Shown: positions 26,255-34,046 of the stretch, piece after piece
Layout: every line of letters starts with the position of its first letter
Position numbering within the stretch: position 1 is the stretch's first letter
Assembly: GCF_008386395.1 (NCBI RefSeq)
Contig: NZ_CP043761.1
Coordinates: 1,178,001 to 1,242,000, forward strand
Source: Paenibacillus sp. 37
GTDB taxonomy: Bacteria > Bacillota > Bacilli > Paenibacillales > Paenibacillaceae
Reading direction: 5' to 3'
DNA length: 64,000 bases
Notes under the pieces: generated by a model
The model's input: only the letters and a program-made list of their open reading frames with translations
Told to the model about the DNA's origin: nothing
The model's database searches: none
Position numbers and translations under genes: made by a program

Positions 26255-26444
26255 CCAAATCCCTCCCAAATATTAGTTGATTCATGAGTTCGTCCATATT
26301 CTACCACACGAAAATCTCACATAGTCATAACAATTTGTAAAAATTAACTCGATATTTGTAAAATTGGGTCTTTTGACATATCCATAGGTATTTCGGTCCC
26401 GTCATAATCCATTCATTTCTGCGTGTATATTGATTTTACGCAAA

Positions 26445-26471
26445 TAAAAAGCCATCTCTTATGAGATGACT
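26445..26471 (-). terminator. Intrinsic terminator at end of sigma gene
   Basis: On the minus strand GTCATCTC-ATAA-GAGATGGC is followed by TTTTTATTT. The hairpin includes the sigma gene's stop codon. Confidence 0.7.
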
Positions 26472-26935
26472 TTGGCCCGAATTCGATTGACGGCATGGAA
26501 GACAGAGGATTTAATCATACCTTCACTACGGTTCACCAGCTCTGCTGTTTCCTTAATGGAGTATCCATGGATGAGCCGAAGTTCTAATATTTTACGATGT
26601 TCGGTGTTGTTAATATGGGAGACAAGATCATGAACACCCTCGCTAATTTCAAGGTGGGATGTATCGACGTGATGGGTAGGCACCTCTAGACGACTGTCTC
26701 GTCTGAGTGTACGGGTCCGCCTGCGGAAGCTGTCCATCGCCAGGTTACGGGCAATGCGTTTGAGATAATAGAGAATGCGATCTTCAGGGATATCCACGGT
26801 AACGTTCATTAGTCGAATGAAACAATCCTGTGCCAGATCTTCTGCATCTTGCGGTTGTTTGACGATATGGGATAGATACCTTGTGATTTCTGATTTATAG
26901 TTGACATAAGCATCATTAATTTGTGTGCTGTTCAT
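26459..26935 (-). CDS. ECF-type RNA polymerase sigma factor
   Basis: A 158-residue protein with sigma region 2 (about 10-75, 'QPQDAEDLAQDCFIRLMN', 'YYLKRIARNLAMDSFRRR') and region 4 (about 105-155, 'ILELRLIHGYSIKETAELVN', a helix-turn-helix). Length is standard for ECF factors. ATG 26935 has GGGGGA 10 bases upstream. No anti-sigma gene follows; the next gene on this strand is the large secreted protein after a terminator. Its promoter region carries a 53-bp module shared with the efflux operon at 30869, so it is probably controlled by the response regulator encoded divergently at 27151 (inference). Confidence 0.9.
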   Translation of the reverse strand: MNSTQINDAYVNYKSEITRYLSHIVKQPQDAEDLAQDCFIRLMNVTVDIPEDRILYYLKRIARNLAMDSFRRRTRTLRRDSRLEVPTHHVDTSHLEISEGVHDLVSHINNTEHRKILELRLIHGYSIKETAELVNRSEGMIKSSVFHAVNRIRAKVIS

Positions 26936-27003: not shown

Positions 27004-27056
27004 AGTATATCGGGAGGTTGTTTCCAAAAGGTTCAGAGTTGTATCGGAGTTGTAAC
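27004..27056 (-). promoter_or_regulatory. Response-regulator box plus -10 upstream of sigma gene
   Basis: Read on the minus strand: GTTACAA-N4-GATACAACTC, then GGAAACAAC, then TATACT. The TTACA and ATACA half-sites are 11 bp apart and the third is 21 bp further on, one face of the helix, as for OmpR-family binding. The module at 30570-30622 has the same elements at identical spacing. Confidence 0.65.
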
Positions 27057-27150
27057 ATTTCGTGCTTCCCTCTATTCAAGCATACGGCTTGGGATACAAA
27101 ATAAAGGCAGATGAAGGAAATTCATAGAGCAGGGAGATTACGAAAGTATC

Positions 27151-27864
27151 ATGAGACAAAAAGAGATTTTAATTATTGAGGACGAGGAGTCCATTCGCGA
27201 TATTTTGTCCTATTCGTTACGTAAGGAAGGATTTGAGATCAAGGAAGCAGCTACGGGAAAAGAGGGCCTGGATCTGCTTCGGGATTCGAAGCCGGATCTG
27301 ATCCTGCTGGATCTGATGCTTCCAGACATGAGTGGTTTTGATGTGTGCAGGCAACTATCCGTGAATTCCAAGATACCCGTCATCATGATTACCGCCAAGT
27401 CGGACATGCTGGACAAGGTGCTTGGCATGGAGCTTGGGGCGGATGATTATATCACGAAGCCTTTTGATATCCGTGAGGTGGTTGCGCGCATTCGGGCGAT
27501 TTTTCGACGGATTGATCTGATCAGCGAGACACTGGAGAATCAGTCCTATGAGGTGGTAAGGCTAGGCAAGCATATTGAGATCCGCAAGGATGAACGGGAA
27601 GTGTGGAAAGACGGGGAACGGGCAGGACTCACGAATAAAGAATATGATCTGTTGTTATTTCTCGTGACCCATCATCGTAAGGTTCATACACGTTCTGAAC
27701 TGCTGGATAAGGTATGGGGATTTGATTTTGCAGGGGATACCCGAACAGTGGACATTCATGTGCAACGGATTCGTAAGAAACTGGATAGTGGTGTGCAAGG
27801 TATTTCGATGATTGAAACGGTATTCGGTGTGGGGTACAAGCTGAATATTCAGGTACAGACATGA
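27151..27864 (+). CDS. OmpR/PhoB-family response regulator
   Basis: A 237-residue two-domain regulator. The receiver domain has acidic 'IIEDEES', the phospho-acceptor Asp in 'PDLILLDLMLPDMSGFD' (about residue 53) and the Lys of 'ITKPFD'. The C-terminal winged helix (about 130-235) shows 'LTNKEYDLLLFLVTHHRKV' and 'RTVDIHVQRIRKKLD'. ATG 27151 is used. The stop overlaps the kinase start (ATGA). It probably binds the 11-bp-spaced repeats found upstream of the sigma gene and of the ABC efflux operon. Confidence 0.93.
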   Translation: MRQKEILIIEDEESIRDILSYSLRKEGFEIKEAATGKEGLDLLRDSKPDLILLDLMLPDMSGFDVCRQLSVNSKIPVIMITAKSDMLDKVLGMELGADDYITKPFDIREVVARIRAIFRRIDLISETLENQSYEVVRLGKHIEIRKDEREVWKDGERAGLTNKEYDLLLFLVTHHRKVHTRSELLDKVWGFDFAGDTRTVDIHVQRIRKKLDSGVQGISMIETVFGVGYKLNIQVQT

Positions 27865-29327
27865 AGTGGACGATCCAGTTTAAAATGGTGGTGCTATTCT
27901 CGGTCATTGTATTTATCGGATTCTCCGTCCTGCTGATTCTGTCCAATAAGGTAGCCCAGGAGAATATGTACCGGGAAGTGCATGAGGATATGGTGCAATC
28001 CAAAAGAAATCTGGATATCGCGCTGAATCAGTACTTCTTGATTCATAATAAACGCATGAGCAGAGACTCGCTCGAAGCAGGAAGTCGCGAGCTCGCGGAG
28101 CAGATTGGATCAGCCGTTGGTGGGGAGATTACGGTATACCGTCCCGATGCTTCGCCCTACGGATCTGCTGGTAGCAAGGTTAACGTTGCTAAGCGCTCTG
28201 ATCATCCTGATGTGGAGGAAGCCATACAATCCCGGATCGCTTATACCACAGTTGTGGATAAAGGTCGGGTCACCTCCAGTCTGTCCTTCCCGCTTCAGAT
28301 GGATCAACAATTGATTGGAATTGTGCAGTTGGAGAAGGATTACACCGACTTGTACAAACGCAATCTCCGGTTCCAGAATACGATCAAGCTGTTTGCAGCG
28401 GTTATTTTTGTATTTGTATTTATCGCATCCATCTTTATTTCCCGGAAAATTACACAACCCATCCGTGTACTGACGAAACGTTCTGCGGAAGTGGCCCATG
28501 GAAGTTTGAATGCGGACATTCAGATTACAACCAAGGATGAAATCGGTGAATTGGCTTCAAGCTTCACCGTCATGATTGATCGGGTACGGGAGCAGATTGA
28601 TGTGATTGAGCGAGAGCGGGACGAAGTGAAGCAAGTACAGGCGCGAAGCAAAGTTTTTTTTGATAATGTGACGCATGAATTGAAGACACCCTTAACGACG
28701 ATTCTGGGATACGCCCAGATTTTACGGGATAACGGATTTACCGACCAGGACTTTTTCGACAAAGGCATGAATTATATCATCAAGGAAAGCCAGCGTCTTA
28801 ACACGATGGTTGCGGATATTCTGGAGGTGTCGGTCTCTTCTGCGGTCATTCAGGCATACCGGTTCGAACGTATCGATATATCAGATATTATTCGTGAAGC
28901 TTGCGAGGACATGTCGATTAAGGCGAGCAAGTACAATATAGGCATCCACTATGAGTTGGAGGAACATCAGTATTTACAGGGAGATCGGGATAAGTTGAAG
29001 GAGGTCTTCCTCAACATCCTGGATAATTCGGTCAAGTACAGTGATGTGAACTCCATTATCGAAGTACAGTCCTTCCGGTTAGGTGATTCTATTGCTATTG
29101 TGATAAGAGATCAGGGGGAAGGAATCGGCGCTGAAGCGCTCCAGCATGTATTTGAACCCTTTTACCAGGATAAAGGAATCAACAGGGCCGAGAAAGGCAG
29201 TGCCGGACTGGGTTTGTCTATTGTGAAGAACATCGTTGAGCGTCATGGAGGAACTGTGGAGATGAAGAGCATCATGCGGGAAGGGACACAAGTGAATATC
29301 AGTCTTCCGGGGGAAATGAACGCATGA
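27861..29327 (+). CDS. Sensor histidine kinase
   Basis: A 488-residue membrane kinase: membrane helix (about 7-29), extracytoplasmic sensor (about 30-165), second helix (about 170-192), HAMP (about 195-250), HisKA with phospho-His in 'FFDNVTHELKTPLTTILGYA' (about 272), and HATPase_c with N box 'FLNILDNSVKYS' and G boxes 'DQGEGIG' and 'GSAGLGLSIVKN'. All key residues are present. It overlaps genes on both sides by 4 bases, so the regulator, kinase and the next protein are translationally coupled. The ligand is unknown; the adjacent MacAB-like pump suggests a peptide or envelope stress signal. Confidence 0.93.
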   Translation: MKWTIQFKMVVLFSVIVFIGFSVLLILSNKVAQENMYREVHEDMVQSKRNLDIALNQYFLIHNKRMSRDSLEAGSRELAEQIGSAVGGEITVYRPDASPYGSAGSKVNVAKRSDHPDVEEAIQSRIAYTTVVDKGRVTSSLSFPLQMDQQLIGIVQLEKDYTDLYKRNLRFQNTIKLFAAVIFVFVFIASIFISRKITQPIRVLTKRSAEVAHGSLNADIQITTKDEIGELASSFTVMIDRVREQIDVIERERDEVKQVQARSKVFFDNVTHELKTPLTTILGYAQILRDNGFTDQDFFDKGMNYIIKESQRLNTMVADILEVSVSSAVIQAYRFERIDISDIIREACEDMSIKASKYNIGIHYELEEHQYLQGDRDKLKEVFLNILDNSVKYSDVNSIIEVQSFRLGDSIAIVIRDQGEGIGAEALQHVFEPFYQDKGINRAEKGSAGLGLSIVKNIVERHGGTVEMKSIMREGTQVNISLPGEMNA

Positions 29328-30487
29328 GACATCCTGGATTTTGGCGTAAAAACCGTGACAGATTGATGCTGTCAGGGTTGTTGATCGCATTTGTCAGCGG
29401 AATTTTTGGGATTGGGAGCCTGTTCAGTCTCGGAAATCTCAAACCAAGAACGGTGATTTTGCCAAGTGAGCAGTTCAACAGCCGTCTGGCACCACCACCT
29501 AGCAGTACGATTCAGATCGAGTCGGCTACCAAGATTCCAAATGACTTTGCGATCTTTGATTTTGAAGTGTTAGACCGGAATACGATTATATTTAATCAAC
29601 CGGAATTTTCCTATTCAGGGCTCAAGCTGTCTCTCCTGCATCTGGATGATAAGGAAGTGAAGAACATTGCGGCTAATACGGATTACGGTGTAACGATCAG
29701 TCCGGATCACAAAAAAATCATATACTCCCAGTATCGGGCAGGTCAGACGCAGAAGACAACGTATGAGTATATGATACAGAGCGGGGAACGTCGCAAACTT
29801 CCGTACGACAACTCGTATTATCGAGTGTTTGTAGGGAACGACTCCTACATCGGTCAGGATGATCTGTCATTTAAACAAGTTGATCTGAGCCAGGGGAAGA
29901 GTCATGTCATCTACACGTATGAAGAGCTGATGAGCATGTTCACAGGACCAAGACAAGGGAAAGGTTCGAGTGATACGTTTATCGTTATGGATGTGTTGCA
30001 GGTCAGTGGGGATCACGAGCAGTTTTATATACTGGTGATGCTGAAAGACAAGTATGCCATCTATCGTGTATCGCTTGAGGATGAGCATGAAGTGAAGGCG
30101 TATGCTGCAATGGAAGACATTCAACAGTACAAGTTGCTGAAAAATGGTGACATGCTCATCCAGGGAACGATGAATAAGGTACAGGGCCTGTATCGGTATC
30201 ATGCAGCAGAGGAGCAGTATGATCTGTTATTACAAGGTTCGATCTGGAGCTTCGATCTGGATGCAGATGAATCCCGAATAGCTTACTTTTTCCCGATGGA
30301 CAGTCAGAATCAGAAGAATGAGTTGCATGTTGCCTACCTGAATGACAGCAAAATTTCGTCGGATACGGTGATCTATCGCAATATTGATAACTTCATCAGT
30401 CTGAAATGGAATGACGATGAATTATTTGCTGTAAGCAGCTCAGTGGATAAAAGTGAAATGTACCGCTTTAGTTTCAGAGCCTGGTAA
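29324..30487 (+). CDS. Membrane-anchored protein of the two-component operon, probable beta-propeller
   Basis: A 387-residue protein with a single N-terminal membrane helix ('LMLSGLLIAFVSGIFGIGSLF') and a large extracytoplasmic part rich in beta strands. Recurrent segments such as 'TDYGVTISPDHKKIIYSQY', 'IWSFDLDADESRIAYFFP' and 'ISLKWNDDELFAVSS' resemble blades of TolB-like propellers. No named family recognised. The ATGA overlap with the kinase gene implies joint function, for example as a sensor accessory (inference). Confidence 0.65.
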   Translation: MRHPGFWRKNRDRLMLSGLLIAFVSGIFGIGSLFSLGNLKPRTVILPSEQFNSRLAPPPSSTIQIESATKIPNDFAIFDFEVLDRNTIIFNQPEFSYSGLKLSLLHLDDKEVKNIAANTDYGVTISPDHKKIIYSQYRAGQTQKTTYEYMIQSGERRKLPYDNSYYRVFVGNDSYIGQDDLSFKQVDLSQGKSHVIYTYEELMSMFTGPRQGKGSSDTFIVMDVLQVSGDHEQFYILVMLKDKYAIYRVSLEDEHEVKAYAAMEDIQQYKLLKNGDMLIQGTMNKVQGLYRYHAAEEQYDLLLQGSIWSFDLDADESRIAYFFPMDSQNQKNELHVAYLNDSKISSDTVIYRNIDNFISLKWNDDELFAVSSSVDKSEMYRFSFRAW

Positions 30488-30510
30488 GCTGCGGAAGGTA
30501 TACGAATATA

Positions 30511-30560
30511 AGACCTTGGTCTGATGGAGTGATAGCTGCTCTGCGGACAAGGTCTTTTTG
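30511..30560 (+). terminator. Intrinsic terminator of the two-component operon
   Basis: AGACCTTG and CAAGGTCT arms with a loop of about 29 nt, followed by TTTTTG. It separates the signalling operon from the efflux operon promoter. Confidence 0.65.
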
Positions 30561-30569
30561 TTATGACAT

Positions 30570-30622
30570 GTTACAAGTTGGATACAACTCCGGCCAGCCC
30601 GGATACATCTCCACCCTATAAT
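30570..30622 (+). promoter_or_regulatory. Response-regulator box plus -10 upstream of ABC efflux operon
   Basis: GTTACAA-N4-GATACAACTC, then GGATACATC, then TATAAT (30617-30622). Length and internal spacing are identical to the sigma-gene module at 27004-27056. No -35 consensus stands 17 bp before the -10, which fits an activator-dependent promoter. Confidence 0.65.
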
Positions 30623-30658
30623 AAAAGGGAATGTGCTACGCGAATCTTTACATACAAG

Positions 30659-30823
30659 TTCAAAAAAACTGGTTTTCAGTACCGAGAAGATGGGATGAAG
30701 CTAGAAATGGAGTAGCAGAGCGTAGGGAAAACTACGTGAGCAACGGACATTTCGGCTGAATTCTATATTCGATGTTGATGATGTCATTAGACATCCTTCG
30801 TAATCAAAAGCGGGCTTTTTGAA
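30659..30823 (-). repeat. MITE-like dispersed repeat, copy B (inverted relative to copy A)
   Basis: 165 bp; its reverse complement aligns with 9459-9622 over almost the full length. Ends are TTCAAAAA and TTTTTGAA types. It lies inside the leader, between the regulated promoter (30570-30622) and the ATPase gene. Confidence 0.8.
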
Positions 30824-30868
30824 CAACCTCTGTACATATTTAGCAAGTAGAAAGGAAGAAATGCAGTA

Positions 30869-31552
30869 ATGCTTCAAGTTGAACAATTATCCCACTCGTT
30901 CCGCAATGGCCAGGGAACCGTGCCGGTGCTTCAGGATATCAACCTGACGATTGGAGAAGGCAAGATGGTAGCCCTGCTGGGCAGTTCTGGTTCGGGTAAA
31001 TCCACACTGCTGAATCTGATGGCGGGGCTGATGAAACCGGATCAGGGCAAGATTCTCATTGCGGGACAAGATATTGTACGTTTCAGTGAAAATCGCCTGG
31101 CTGAGTTCAGGCGCAGTCATATTGGGTTTATTTTTCAATCCTATGAACTGCTGTCCAATCTTACGATCCGGGAAAATGTAGAATTACCCTTGGTGTTTAT
31201 GGGGATAAGCCCTTCGAAACGCAAAGCAAAAGCATTGAAGTTGCTGGAACAAGTGGGACTGGGTGAAAAAGCAAACTTGTTCCCGTCCCAGTTGTCGGGC
31301 GGCCAACAACAACGTGTCAGTATTGCACGTTCGCTTATTACCGAACCCTCGGTTATCTTTGCAGATGAGCCTACCGGGAATCTGGATACCGAGACGGAGG
31401 AAGAGATTATTGCGATTTTGCAGCAGCTTAACCGGGATATGAATACAACCTTTGTCATTGTGACACATGAAGCAGAGGTCGCGGAGCAGATGCAAGTTGT
31501 GCTTACACTGCAACATGGAATACTGGTCGAAGAGGCTGTAAGGGAAGTTTGA
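30869..31552 (+). CDS. MacB/LolD-type ABC transporter ATPase
   Basis: A 227-residue ATPase with Walker A 'GSSGSGKSTLL', Q-loop 'IFQSYELL', signature '[15 protein letters not shown]', Walker B 'VIFADEPTGNLD' and switch His 'VIVTHEAEVAEQ'. The ADEPTGNLD form is typical of the MacB/LolD/YknY group. ATG 30869 follows AAAGGAAG. It is the first gene of an ATPase-permease-adaptor operon similar to yknXYZ of Bacillus, which protects against toxic peptides. Confidence 0.93.
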   Translation: MLQVEQLSHSFRNGQGTVPVLQDINLTIGEGKMVALLGSSGSGKSTLLNLMAGLMKPDQGKILIAGQDIVRFSENRLAEFRRSHIGFIFQSYELLSNLTIRENVELPLVFMGISPSKRKAKALKLLEQVGLGEKANLFPSQLSGGQQQRVSIARSLITEPSVIFADEPTGNLDTETEEEIIAILQQLNRDMNTTFVIVTHEAEVAEQMQVVLTLQHGILVEEAVREV

Positions 31553-31570: not shown

Positions 31571-32941
31571 GTGAGAATACGGGATGTAGCACGTATGGCC
31601 TGGGGACAGATCATTCGCAGAAAAATGGTCACACTGCTGTGTATGATGGGGCTGTCCATTGGTTCTGCCGCCATGATTATTGCACTTAGCGTGGGGCAGT
31701 CCGTACAGACCTATAGCGAGAAAACATTGAACGACAATTACAAGATGGATGAAATCACGATTACGCCCAATGAAGGCATACGTACCGGGAACGGCAAGGG
31801 GAATAGTCAGACATCGAAGTTTGAACGGGGAGCATTGACGTTGGAAAAGATTCAGATTATCCAAAGACTTCCCCATGTTGTTGCCGTGGCTCCCATGTTA
31901 AAGCTGGATTCGCTGGAAATGGTGCTTCCGGATGGTCGCAGCACGTATGTTGAGGTCATTGGTACCCAGCTGGAGACCCTGGGCGGGTTTGGATACAAGT
32001 ATGCTGAGGGACGTGGGGCAGAGGATGGTCGTATGGCGGTAACCAGTTATGGGGCTGCATTCGGACTCGTGGACCCCAAAGTAACTCAGAAGTTATTCGA
32101 GCAGTTGAATGCTGATCCATATAACAACGAGCTTTTGGAACAGTTTATGGAAATGTCCGCCAAGCAGGATCAGCTGGTTCAGCAGCTGGTTCAGTTCCGA
32201 TATGAAGATTATGCGAATGCAAGCAAAACCAAAATGAGTGGCTCTATACGCGTGTCTGGAGAGTTGACGAAGCCTTCCAACATGGATGAGATGAGCGCTC
32301 AAAACGATAAAAAAGTATATCTGCCGCTCGATACAGCTCGTGCATTGCAGGATGAGCTTGGATTACAGCAGGCCGACAGCAGTGCGGCCAAGCATCTTAA
32401 CTCGGCTCTGGTCAAGGTTGAGGACAAACGTTATGTATCCCAGGTGGAAGAACAGATTAAAAAGCTGACTTTAAATACACAGAGTAATCTGTTCCAGGAA
32501 GAAGCGATGTCAGGTCAACTGGCAATGTACCAAAAAGCGGCATTGGGAATCGGCGGTTTTATCATGCTGCTGGCCTCATTATCCATTATTGTAGCGATGA
32601 TTATGTCTACGCATCAGCGTCGTAAACAGATTGGTGTGATGAAGGTGCTGGGCGCAAATCTGTGGCAGATCCGTCAGATGTTTATTACGGAAGCAGCGAT
32701 GCTTGGATTAATGGGCGGCGTGGCTGGTGTGGGGATTGCCTTTGCTGCCCTCGGCGGGGTGAACAGTCTGCTGGCGAGTCAGATGGCAGATCAGATGAAT
32801 GGTCCGATGACCGTCGTTATTCAGCAATCCGCTCTGCCACTCGGCATCGTTTTTGCTGTTCTGGTTGGCATTGTATCAGGTATATATCCGGCAATCAGCG
32901 CATCTCGAACCAATGCATTAACTGTGATCAAATCAATGTAA
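31571..32941 (+). CDS. MacB/FtsX-type ABC permease
   Basis: A 456-residue permease starting at GTG 31571 with GGAGAGG upstream. N-terminal membrane helix (about 18-40), MacB-like extracytoplasmic domain (about 45-310), then three C-terminal helices (about 325-350, 380-400, 420-445) of the FtsX type with 'MKVLGANLWQIRQMFITEAA'. It is mechanotransmission-type machinery pairing with the ATPase and the adaptor. Some FtsX permeases have shorter ectodomains; this one has a longer, Gln/Lys-rich insert near 180-215. Confidence 0.92.
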   Translation: MRIRDVARMAWGQIIRRKMVTLLCMMGLSIGSAAMIIALSVGQSVQTYSEKTLNDNYKMDEITITPNEGIRTGNGKGNSQTSKFERGALTLEKIQIIQRLPHVVAVAPMLKLDSLEMVLPDGRSTYVEVIGTQLETLGGFGYKYAEGRGAEDGRMAVTSYGAAFGLVDPKVTQKLFEQLNADPYNNELLEQFMEMSAKQDQLVQQLVQFRYEDYANASKTKMSGSIRVSGELTKPSNMDEMSAQNDKKVYLPLDTARALQDELGLQQADSSAAKHLNSALVKVEDKRYVSQVEEQIKKLTLNTQSNLFQEEAMSGQLAMYQKAALGIGGFIMLLASLSIIVAMIMSTHQRRKQIGVMKVLGANLWQIRQMFITEAAMLGLMGGVAGVGIAFAALGGVNSLLASQMADQMNGPMTVVIQQSALPLGIVFAVLVGIVSGIYPAISASRTNALTVIKSM

Positions 32942-32969: not shown

Positions 32970-34046
32970 ATGAAGAAATGGATTAAAATCATCATCACCG
33001 TTGTACTTTTGGCAGGTGCAGGGTACTGGTTGTATGAAAAGTACAAGCCAAAACCGGAGGCACCTATAGAGATTCCGCCCCCGATTACTTTTGATGTGAC
33101 ACAGGAAACGATGACGCAAACGATACAGGTGAAAGGGAAATCCGTATACACCGATCAGACGGATATCTTCGCTCCGTATGCTTCCAACATCAAGCAGTGG
33201 CACGTGAAAAGTGGTGAGCAGGTGAGCAAAGGCGATATCCTGTTTACCCTCGACACTTCCACGTTACAAACAGAAGTAGAACAGTTGCAGAGTGATCTGG
33301 AGAAAGCCCAGCTGGAAAATAAGATGAATCAGGTTAGCCTGGATCAGGCGAATATGAGTGAGACGCTTGGCGTGACGGAAGAGGAGCGCAAGAAGGCATT
33401 TGCAGATCGGGAAGGTAAACGCCTGACGAATGAATTGAATCAAAAAGCGCTGGTCCTCAAGGAGAAGGAGATACAGAAAAAGCAGGCAGTAATAAGTAAG
33501 TCTGTTGTGTATGCTTCCGCTTCCGGTATATTTCAGATGAATGAAGAGGATAGCAAGACACGTGTGGTGACGGAAGGACAGCTGATCGGATCCATTACAA
33601 ACATCAGCAAACTGAAATTTATGACGATTGTTGGTGAGGAAGAAATGTTCAGGCTCAAGGTGGGCATGCCAGTTAAGGTGCGAATGACAGCACAGAAAGA
33701 CCTGCAATTCACCGGGAAGGTGAGCAAGGTATCCAAATTCGCCCGCAAGAGTACGGATACGGACCTCAAGCAAGCATCCCAGTTTGACGTGGTCATTGAT
33801 CTGAAGCCTGACGCCAGAATGTATGGAGGCGTGAGTCTGGAAGGCGATATCGAGACGATGCGGAAGGATAAAGTGACGGTTGTGTCCAGCCTGGCGATTA
33901 TGCGGGATCAGACCGAGCCTTACGTACTGTTAGACAAGGGCAATGGACAGACCGCGCCGCTGACGATCCAGGCTGGAATGGAATCGGGGGACAAGACGGA
34001 AGTAGTTAGTGGCTTGAAACCGGGAGACATTGTCGTTTTGCCTTAG
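32970..34046 (+). CDS. Efflux adaptor (HlyD/MacA/YknX family)
   Basis: A 358-residue membrane-fusion-type adaptor: N-terminal membrane helix 'IIITVVLLAGAGYWLY', lipoyl half 'PYASNIKQWHVKSGEQVSKG', a coiled coil (about 95-175), second lipoyl half 'YASASGIFQ', and beta-barrel domains to the end. ATG 32970 follows GAAAGGGAAA. In Gram-positives such adaptors assist MacB-like pumps without an outer-membrane channel. It is the last gene of the operon. Confidence 0.92.
   Translation: MKKWIKIIITVVLLAGAGYWLYEKYKPKPEAPIEIPPPITFDVTQETMTQTIQVKGKSVYTDQTDIFAPYASNIKQWHVKSGEQVSKGDILFTLDTSTLQTEVEQLQSDLEKAQLENKMNQVSLDQANMSETLGVTEEERKKAFADREGKRLTNELNQKALVLKEKEIQKKQAVISKSVVYASASGIFQMNEEDSKTRVVTEGQLIGSITNISKLKFMTIVGEEEMFRLKVGMPVKVRMTAQKDLQFTGKVSKVSKFARKSTDTDLKQASQFDVVIDLKPDARMYGGVSLEGDIETMRKDKVTVVSSLAIMRDQTEPYVLLDKGNGQTAPLTIQAGMESGDKTEVVSGLKPGDIVVLP

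Follow-up and report, generated by a model that had tools for sequence, protein, structure and literature searches.

In a 64,000 nt stretch of Paenibacillus sp. 37 DNA (contig NZ_CP043761.1, positions 1,178,001 to 1,242,000; the window), two 53 bp promoter modules of one design lie at either end of a two-component system (TCS) operon. One precedes a gene for an extracytoplasmic function (ECF) sigma factor, and the other precedes an operon for a MacAB-like exporter. Their sequence, geometry, conservation and co-occurrence with the local response regulator make it likely that each is an operator-promoter without a −35 element that is activated by a PhoB/OmpR-type protein, most likely the cognate regulator encoded at 27151, which would drive the sigma factor gene and the exporter operon in parallel.

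Two promoter modules share sequence and geometry

The modules, as defined by sequence and conservation, are:

27056-27004, minus strand: promoter module of the sigma factor gene, with GTTACAA at 27056-27050, GATACAA at 27045-27039, GGAAACA at 27025-27019 and the −10 element TATACT at 27009-27004
30570-30622, plus strand: promoter module of the pump operon, with GTTACAA at 30570-30576, GATACAA at 30581-30587, GGATACA at 30601-30607 and the −10 element TATAAT at 30617-30622

Both places conform to the consensus GTTACAA-N4-GATACAACTC-N10-GGAWACAWC-N7-TATAMT. The sigma-side copy reads GTTACAA-CTCC-GATACAA-CTCTGAACCTTTT-GGAAACA-ACCTCCCGA-TATACT on the minus strand, and the pump-side copy reads GTTACAA-GTTG-GATACAA-CTCCGGCCAGCCC-GGATACA-TCTCCACCC-TATAAT on the plus strand. 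Length and spacing are the same, and 34 of 53 positions are identical, chiefly in the half-sites and the −10 element. A first-pass annotation of this DNA had proposed such a shared module, and its coordinates, length and spacing hold to the base for both copies. Its distances between half-sites, 11 and 21 bp, are likewise those of both window copies, and they recur in an alignment of 40 copies (the two in the window and 38 selected from related loci, near-identical ones being omitted).

When TATAMT is taken as −12 to −7, the third half-site falls at about −28 to −22, downstream of an 18 bp pair that the first two form at about −59 to −42. The pair, GTTACAA-N4-GATACAA at both places and in the 40 copies, is a PHO-box-type operator, that is, two 7 nt direct repeats 4 nt apart (a 7-4-7 form). 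Two of the three half-sites are thus upstream sites; the third lies between the −35 and −10 positions and is therefore unlike the others.

PHO-box-type promoters typically lack a good −35 element. The same had been claimed of the modules, and the best match to TTGACA at spacings of 15-19 indeed covers one of six positions on the sigma side and two of six on the pump side. Across 38 copies the best match is 1-4/6 (1-3/6 in 18 sigma-side copies and 2-4/6 in 20 pump-side copies), no better than in random sequence.

Both modules stand out in their own 7.62 Mb genome (G000, with contig C1; G labels denote genomes and L labels fetched loci). The consensus without its −10 element (23 fixed positions, at most 3 mismatches) matched just these two places, and the same scan with the pattern read backwards gave no match. 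A looser 20-position pattern added one place with 3 mismatches. The profile of the 40 copies, which includes both window modules, found 11 places at E ≤ 10: the two modules at 3.2e-15 and 3.2e-14, a third at 0.0152 and eight others at 0.198 or higher. In these whole-genome scans, of the kind suggested earlier as a check on the module, two places are strong and a third is weaker. The accompanying idea of a single stress regulon survives in part: two transcription units lie behind a full-strength module, but no more such units exist in this genome, and the third site, at a VanY-type gene (see below), is weaker.

Scans of the genome for two half-sites returned 22 places and 7 places, and nine of these were inspected. 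Of these, the VanY-type site shows the geometry in full and the site of a paralogous TCS nearly so; the remaining seven do not show it. We also considered whether the modules belong to a duplicated segment and rejected this, since the likeness is confined to the module and gives way outside it to short scattered matches.

Conservation in related loci

We searched for related loci with aligned sequences of the 387-aa protein encoded between the TCS and the pump operon and obtained 30, all from Paenibacillus; a module was scored as present at no more than 6 mismatches in 23 positions. All 30 have the pump-side module, and all but L045 (29 loci) have the regulator-side one. L043 and L045 each have one additional good copy elsewhere (3 mismatches). 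Other matches within the threshold, each with 5-6 mismatches, can be placed by their coordinates inside the permease gene, inside the 939-aa gene next to the sigma factor gene or farther downstream (two loci); we take these as background.

The 40 copies align without gaps over 58 columns, with TTACA, TACA and three −10 positions invariant. Half-sites and the −10 element are constant across copies, and the 13 nt spacer is variable. Information per bin is 1.4-1.8 bits in the half-sites, 0.5-0.6 in the spacer, 0.1-0.5 in the pump-side flanks and 0.3-0.9 in the sigma-side upstream flank. Sigma-side and pump-side copies each keep a characteristic spacer across many loci. Beyond these loci, 94 of 344 family genomes, drawn evenly, have a profile match at E ≤ 1e-4, and the matches fall in 9 of 19 genera.

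At L045 11555, on the minus strand, a module in good condition follows what by eye is a PBP-like gene; that strand shows no gene downstream, and the module is perhaps an orphan promoter. At a comparable place, L158 has a 268-aa open reading frame (ORF) behind a module.

Genes around the modules

The genes concerned are:

26459..26935, minus strand: ECF-type sigma factor, 158 aa (Sigma70_r2, Sigma70_r4_2), divergent from the regulator gene
27151..27864, plus strand: OmpR/PhoB-family response regulator (Response_reg and Trans_reg_C)
27861..29327, plus strand: histidine kinase (HAMP, HisKA, HATPase_c)
29324..30487, plus strand: 387-aa protein with an N-terminal hydrophobic stretch (by eye)
30869..31552, plus strand: ABC ATPase of the MacAB-like exporter
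31571..32941, plus strand: FtsX/MacB-type permease
32970..34046, plus strand: HlyD/RND-type adaptor protein

Pfam and NCBIfam matches identify the adjacent ABC ATPase, MacB/FtsX permease and HlyD/RND adaptor that mark a MacAB-like exporter; the pump proteins score under the MacA and MacB equivalog cut-offs. The sigma factor gene has no adjoining anti-sigma gene: its neighbours encode the response regulator and the 939-aa protein, and no anti-sigma family matched any of the 8 proteins scanned. The response regulator scores under the curated cut-offs of the PhoB, YycF, CseB and MtrA models, and the genes proposed to be under its control encode a sigma factor and a pump rather than phosphate functions, which sets the system apart from the Pho regulon proper. 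The 387-aa protein matches no Pfam or NCBIfam family. One of its homologs (P0051) bears the source name TolB, and those homologs that carry a source name are nearly always from Paenibacillus, often P. amylolyticus.

Co-occurrence of module and regulator

In 75 genomes of the genus group, we counted the regulator as present at 73% identity or more (the next best protein being 60% identical) and a module as strong at E ≤ 1e-10. The regulator occurs in 41 genomes, and 40 of these have two strong modules; in the last, G016, the best match is 5.2e-7. Among the 34 genomes without the regulator, three (G011, G021 and G032) have one strong module, beside the sigma factor gene, and G072 has a weaker one (1.3e-8). 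The association is significant by Fisher's test (p = 1.6e-16), a value that ignores kinship among species and comes from a profile built partly from the same species. The sigma factor gene, at 71% identity or more, is found in 44 genomes, 43 of which have a strong module, three of them without the regulator.

The genomes that lack the regulator differ in what remains. The block from regulator to adaptor is missing beside the sigma factor gene in G011, G021 and G072, the last having no regulator relative among those listed at E ≤ 1e-62. Its module, with a 1 bp insertion and one half-site change, is the sole case of decay among the regulator-less sigma modules. In G032 the block seems freshly deleted, because an adaptor fragment that is 97.7% identical remains. 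G046 carries a second sigma gene copy with a module and no TCS beside it; the TCS and the other sigma gene copy are elsewhere in that genome.

Rearranged and exchanged genes behind the module

Several loci keep the module where the genes around it have changed. The pump operon lies apart from the TCS in L047 and L048, with the module still in front. In P. macerans (L043), the genes that follow the TCS and its module are an OEP-led ABC-FtsX set, an unrelated pump with an ATPase only 42% identical, and another module precedes a deacetylase-sigma pair. L158 has three modules and, with its own 42% identical ATPase set, the pump-gene order of L043.

Another 20 regions were fetched, of which 12 were newly read, all fetched for a profile match; eight were omitted as apparent repeats of the 30-locus set. 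Six of the 12 encode a kinase together with its regulator, the latter 60-83% identical and belonging to this group. In L163 and L173, which bear a different genus label and are absent from the profile, a module-ABC unit and a module-sigma unit flank the TCS. L165 has two modules, one followed by the regulator and what by eye is a deacetylase-like gene, the other by the ABC gene; L167 has a module before the ABC gene, and in L166 a module directly precedes the regulator, as in L100. The TCS and modules occur without a sigma factor in L165 and L167 (none in the stretch fetched) and in G016 (no sigma match at E ≤ 1e-25).

As for the other six loci, L176 has a paralog-type kinase, and L164, L168, L169, L174 and L177 have no TCS in the stretch fetched, L177 also lacking a gapless module. 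Two of the genomes concerned, G254 (L164) and G289 (L174), carry the TCS elsewhere. A lipoprotein-type gene of 262-264 aa follows a module scoring 43-51 in L164, L168 and L174; in L169, where the module scores 53, the ORF call does not show such a gene. Finally, 32 further loci were fetched, and 11 without a gapless match to the position weight matrix (PWM), including L106, L107, L108, L113 and L118, were set aside, save L118 and L126. L118 has a module with an inserted base.

A proposed activation mechanism

The geometry suggests how the module might work. The module, which has no recognizable −35 element, is probably read by the main sigma factor. On the simplest account, a regulator dimer on the 18 bp 7-4-7 repeat (about −59 to −42) would hold region 4 of that sigma factor in place of a −35 contact, aided by a further regulator subunit at the third half-site (about −28 to −22). 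An envelope signal passing through the kinase to the regulator encoded at 27151 would then turn on the ECF sigma factor gene and the MacAB-like operon together. Since no anti-sigma gene lies beside it, the ECF sigma factor would be controlled through its synthesis.

That the regulator encoded at 27151 activates both targets had been proposed in the first-pass annotation. Conservation, promoter location, the missing −35 element, the 7-4-7 form and co-occurrence (40/41 versus 3/34 genomes) speak for the proposal, and the modules of G011 and G021 and the VanY-type hit speak against it. The unfavourable evidence can be set out as follows. G011 and G021, where the closest regulator relatives reach 43-44% identity, have neither the regulator nor the pump block, yet their sigma module is intact; its changes lie mostly outside the half-sites, though the sigma genes differ by 8.2% in DNA. 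The module may therefore have another reader in these genomes, or the losses may be too recent for decay. Six loci of the G060 type have a module with PWM scores of 28-40, where the best regulator is 47% identical in G060 and G012; in four of the six the module is seen before a gene for a secreted-type protein of about 308 aa. Modules scoring 43-53 likewise occur with no TCS in the stretch fetched in L164, L168, L169 and L174. A VanY-type-like match of 18.2 bits persists in the regulator-less genomes G004, G032 and G072, the gene having been read in G004. L045, with no sigma match in the locus, keeps the 7-4-7 pair of the regulator-side module and has lost the sigma-side third half-site and −10 element. 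Lastly, the overlap between profile species and test species makes the co-occurrence partly circular, and it is uncorrected for phylogeny.

Alternative readers of the module

Some of these observations would be explained if another, more widespread PhoB/OmpR-type regulator, such as that of the paralogous TCS near 6.69 Mb or WalR/PhoP, were the chief reader, with the local TCS as a partner or late addition. We regard this as unlikely. It accords with the intact sigma module of G011 and G021, which lack the local regulator, and the paralogous TCS, whose response regulator is 42% identical, has a related site of its own; in L176 a full-geometry module scoring 46.6 lies behind a paralog-type kinase. 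The recognition helix of the paralog also reads TVDIH, the sequence found in nine of ten aligned members of the local group (TVDLH in L050); four further aligned paralogs have TVDTH. This recognition-helix residue contacts DNA in PhoB. Strong double modules, however, follow the local regulator (40/41), and the two sites by paralog-type kinases have GAAACAA instead of GATACAA in half-site 2, which suggests a different preference. The paralog site of the own genome also has one extra spacer base.

That the ECF sigma factor reads the module to regulate its own gene is very improbable. The 43 of 44 sigma-bearing genomes that have a strong module, including three without the regulator, are what such autoregulation would give, but the spacing makes a promoter read by this sigma factor unlikely: ECF promoters have their −35 and −10 elements 16-17 bp apart, and the module has no conserved pair at that spacing, half-site 3 being 9 bp and half-site 2 being 29 bp from the −10 element. 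Moreover, G016, L165 and L167 have the TCS and modules without the sigma factor. Least probable of all is a pair of ordinary promoters that have no dedicated activator and owe their likeness to duplication or gene conversion: the good −10 element in both copies would fit, but the −35 matches in 38 copies do not exceed random expectation, conservation sits in repeats spaced 11 and 21 bp apart and not in the flanks, and each side keeps its own spacer over many loci. Activation by a PhoB/OmpR-type regulator, most likely the local one, is the reading we retain.

Related sites at a VanY-type gene and a paralogous two-component system

The third, weaker site of the own genome precedes a gene for a VanY-type D-Ala-D-Ala carboxypeptidase (L057 671-1441, minus strand; G000 C1 at about 3.0718 Mb; Pfam VanY in G000). 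Its spacing is identical to that of the modules and its −10 element is TATACT, with GAAACAA in half-site 2. VanY-type-like profile matches (18.2 bits) are present in at least 31 of the 75 genomes, the downstream gene having been read in two of them, G000 and G004; matches of 17 bits in G069 and G053 have, by eye, the same gene downstream. We do not count this gene as a target of the local TCS, because the match persists without the regulator and carries GAAACAA.

The paralogous TCS of the own genome (L126; G000 C1:6687600-6693600) comprises a response regulator, a histidine kinase and a TolB-like lipoprotein. Its site, TTTACAA-N4-GAAACAA with the extra base in the spacer, lies at the end of the kinase gene, before the lipoprotein gene. 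L176 encodes a kinase 50.6% identical to that of the paralog, followed by TTTACAA-N4-GAAACAA-N13-CGATACA-N9-TATGAT. In six loci fetched for paralogous regulators (54-59% identical), which include the four with TVDTH, there was no module scoring 10 or more. Taken at the level of sequence, these sites suggest a single promoter design whose variants may be read by several TCSs.

The candidate regulator promoter and the pump leader

Two features adjoining the modules are:

27069..27104, plus strand: candidate promoter of the regulator operon, a conserved block (CCTCTATTCAA ... GATACAAAAT) that emerged on aligning 18 intergenic regions
30658..30831, plus strand: interspersed repeat of about 174 bp in the pump-operon leader, not part of the switch; the own genome has 33 further full or partial matches to it

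The first of these is a second conserved block in the sigma-side flank, directed toward the regulator (CCTCT(A/G)TTCAA...GATACAAAAT); among the 18 intergenic regions it is absent or unrecognizable in L048, L050 and L054. The 7-4-7 pair lies upstream of this block, from which the regulator itself may be transcribed. Given this block and the pattern of L045, in which the pair is kept and the third half-site and −10 element are lost, the pair may also autoregulate the regulator operon.

Seven matches to the leader repeat are 87-92% identical over nearly the whole length, and others lie in longer variants of about 210 bp. The repeat is predicted to form a hairpin (−57 kcal/mol) with complementary ends GTTCAAAAA/TTTTTGAAC and is MITE-like. 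A riboswitch or attenuator in the pump leader was considered and rejected: no Rfam family matches in the window at the gathering threshold, and the leader varies in length between species and holds the interspersed repeat.

On the far side of the sigma factor gene, before the 939-aa gene (26300-26366, minus strand), we observed TTTTACAA and TTTTTACAA about 21 bp apart, followed by TGGTAGAAT, which resembles an extended −10 element. This block is kept in 11 of 12 aligned upstream regions, the exception being L032 within the stretch taken.

Relation to known systems

The PHO box consists of two 7 nt direct repeats 4 nt apart in 11 nt units, and its regulator is reported to contact a sigma subunit (PMC4415409). 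The 7-4-7 form, first defined for PHO boxes, is common to the modules and to the PHO boxes of PhoB and PhoP in E. coli, B. subtilis and others. The modules differ in their unit, G(T/A)TACAA, in the isolated third half-site between −35 and −10, and in their targets, a sigma factor and a pump.

Control by a TCS of an ECF sigma factor gene without an anti-sigma factor is an already known kind of regulation, exemplified by CseBC/SigE and proposed for ECF234. In Streptomyces coelicolor, the CseBC system controls the gene for SigE (ECF39), an ECF sigma factor without an anti-sigma factor, and the TCS genes are accompanied by one for an extracytoplasmic accessory protein (PMC6767563; PMC8999054). Our locus resembles it in the ECF sigma factor without an anti-sigma factor, in the accessory protein gene with the TCS, the two accessory proteins being paired by description only, and in the TCS control, here proposed from sequence features. 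In contrast to that system, the sigma factor gene is divergent here, and its promoter design recurs in front of a pump operon.

TCS control was also proposed, from neighbourhood conservation, for ECF234, a group with a model member in Paenibacillus polymyxa, and the part of PMC8999054 that covers this group describes no operator. The likeness to our locus lies in the proposed TCS control and in the genus, the sigma factor being compared here without assignment to a group. G060 and G026, tentatively taken to be polymyxa-like, have a sigma factor 44-46% identical beside an ABC-FtsX operon; near it there is no module at E ≤ 0.5 in G060, and none scoring 10 or more in L135 and L136. A further parallel comes from Bacillus subtilis, where sigX is an ECF sigma factor gene, YvrGHb is an OmpR-type TCS and the ABC pump yvrPON lies nearby. 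A passage of PMC6391423 says that YvrGHb acts on sigX, which gives another TCS linked to an ECF sigma factor, compared here by description only. In the open-licence literature, we found no description of this TCS, of this operator, of its coupling to a MacAB-like operon or of an exchange of targets under a constant module.

Implications

The modules supply an operator sequence and a wiring proposal for an ECF sigma factor that has no neighbouring anti-sigma gene, and their common design would couple synthesis of the sigma factor to an efflux operon. Genomes that have the sigma module without the TCS, or another pump behind the module, are natural experiments on the rewiring of regulators and targets. 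More tentatively, and with somewhat greater doubt than belief, we consider that a promoter code may extend across the Paenibacillaceae, in which paralogous PhoB-type TCSs read −35-less, three-half-site variants that differ at half-site 2. If this were true, GATACAA would designate the TCS described here and GAAACAA the paralog and the VanY-type gene, and sigma factors, unrelated MacAB-type pumps, deacetylases and lipoproteins would be exchangeable under a constant switch.

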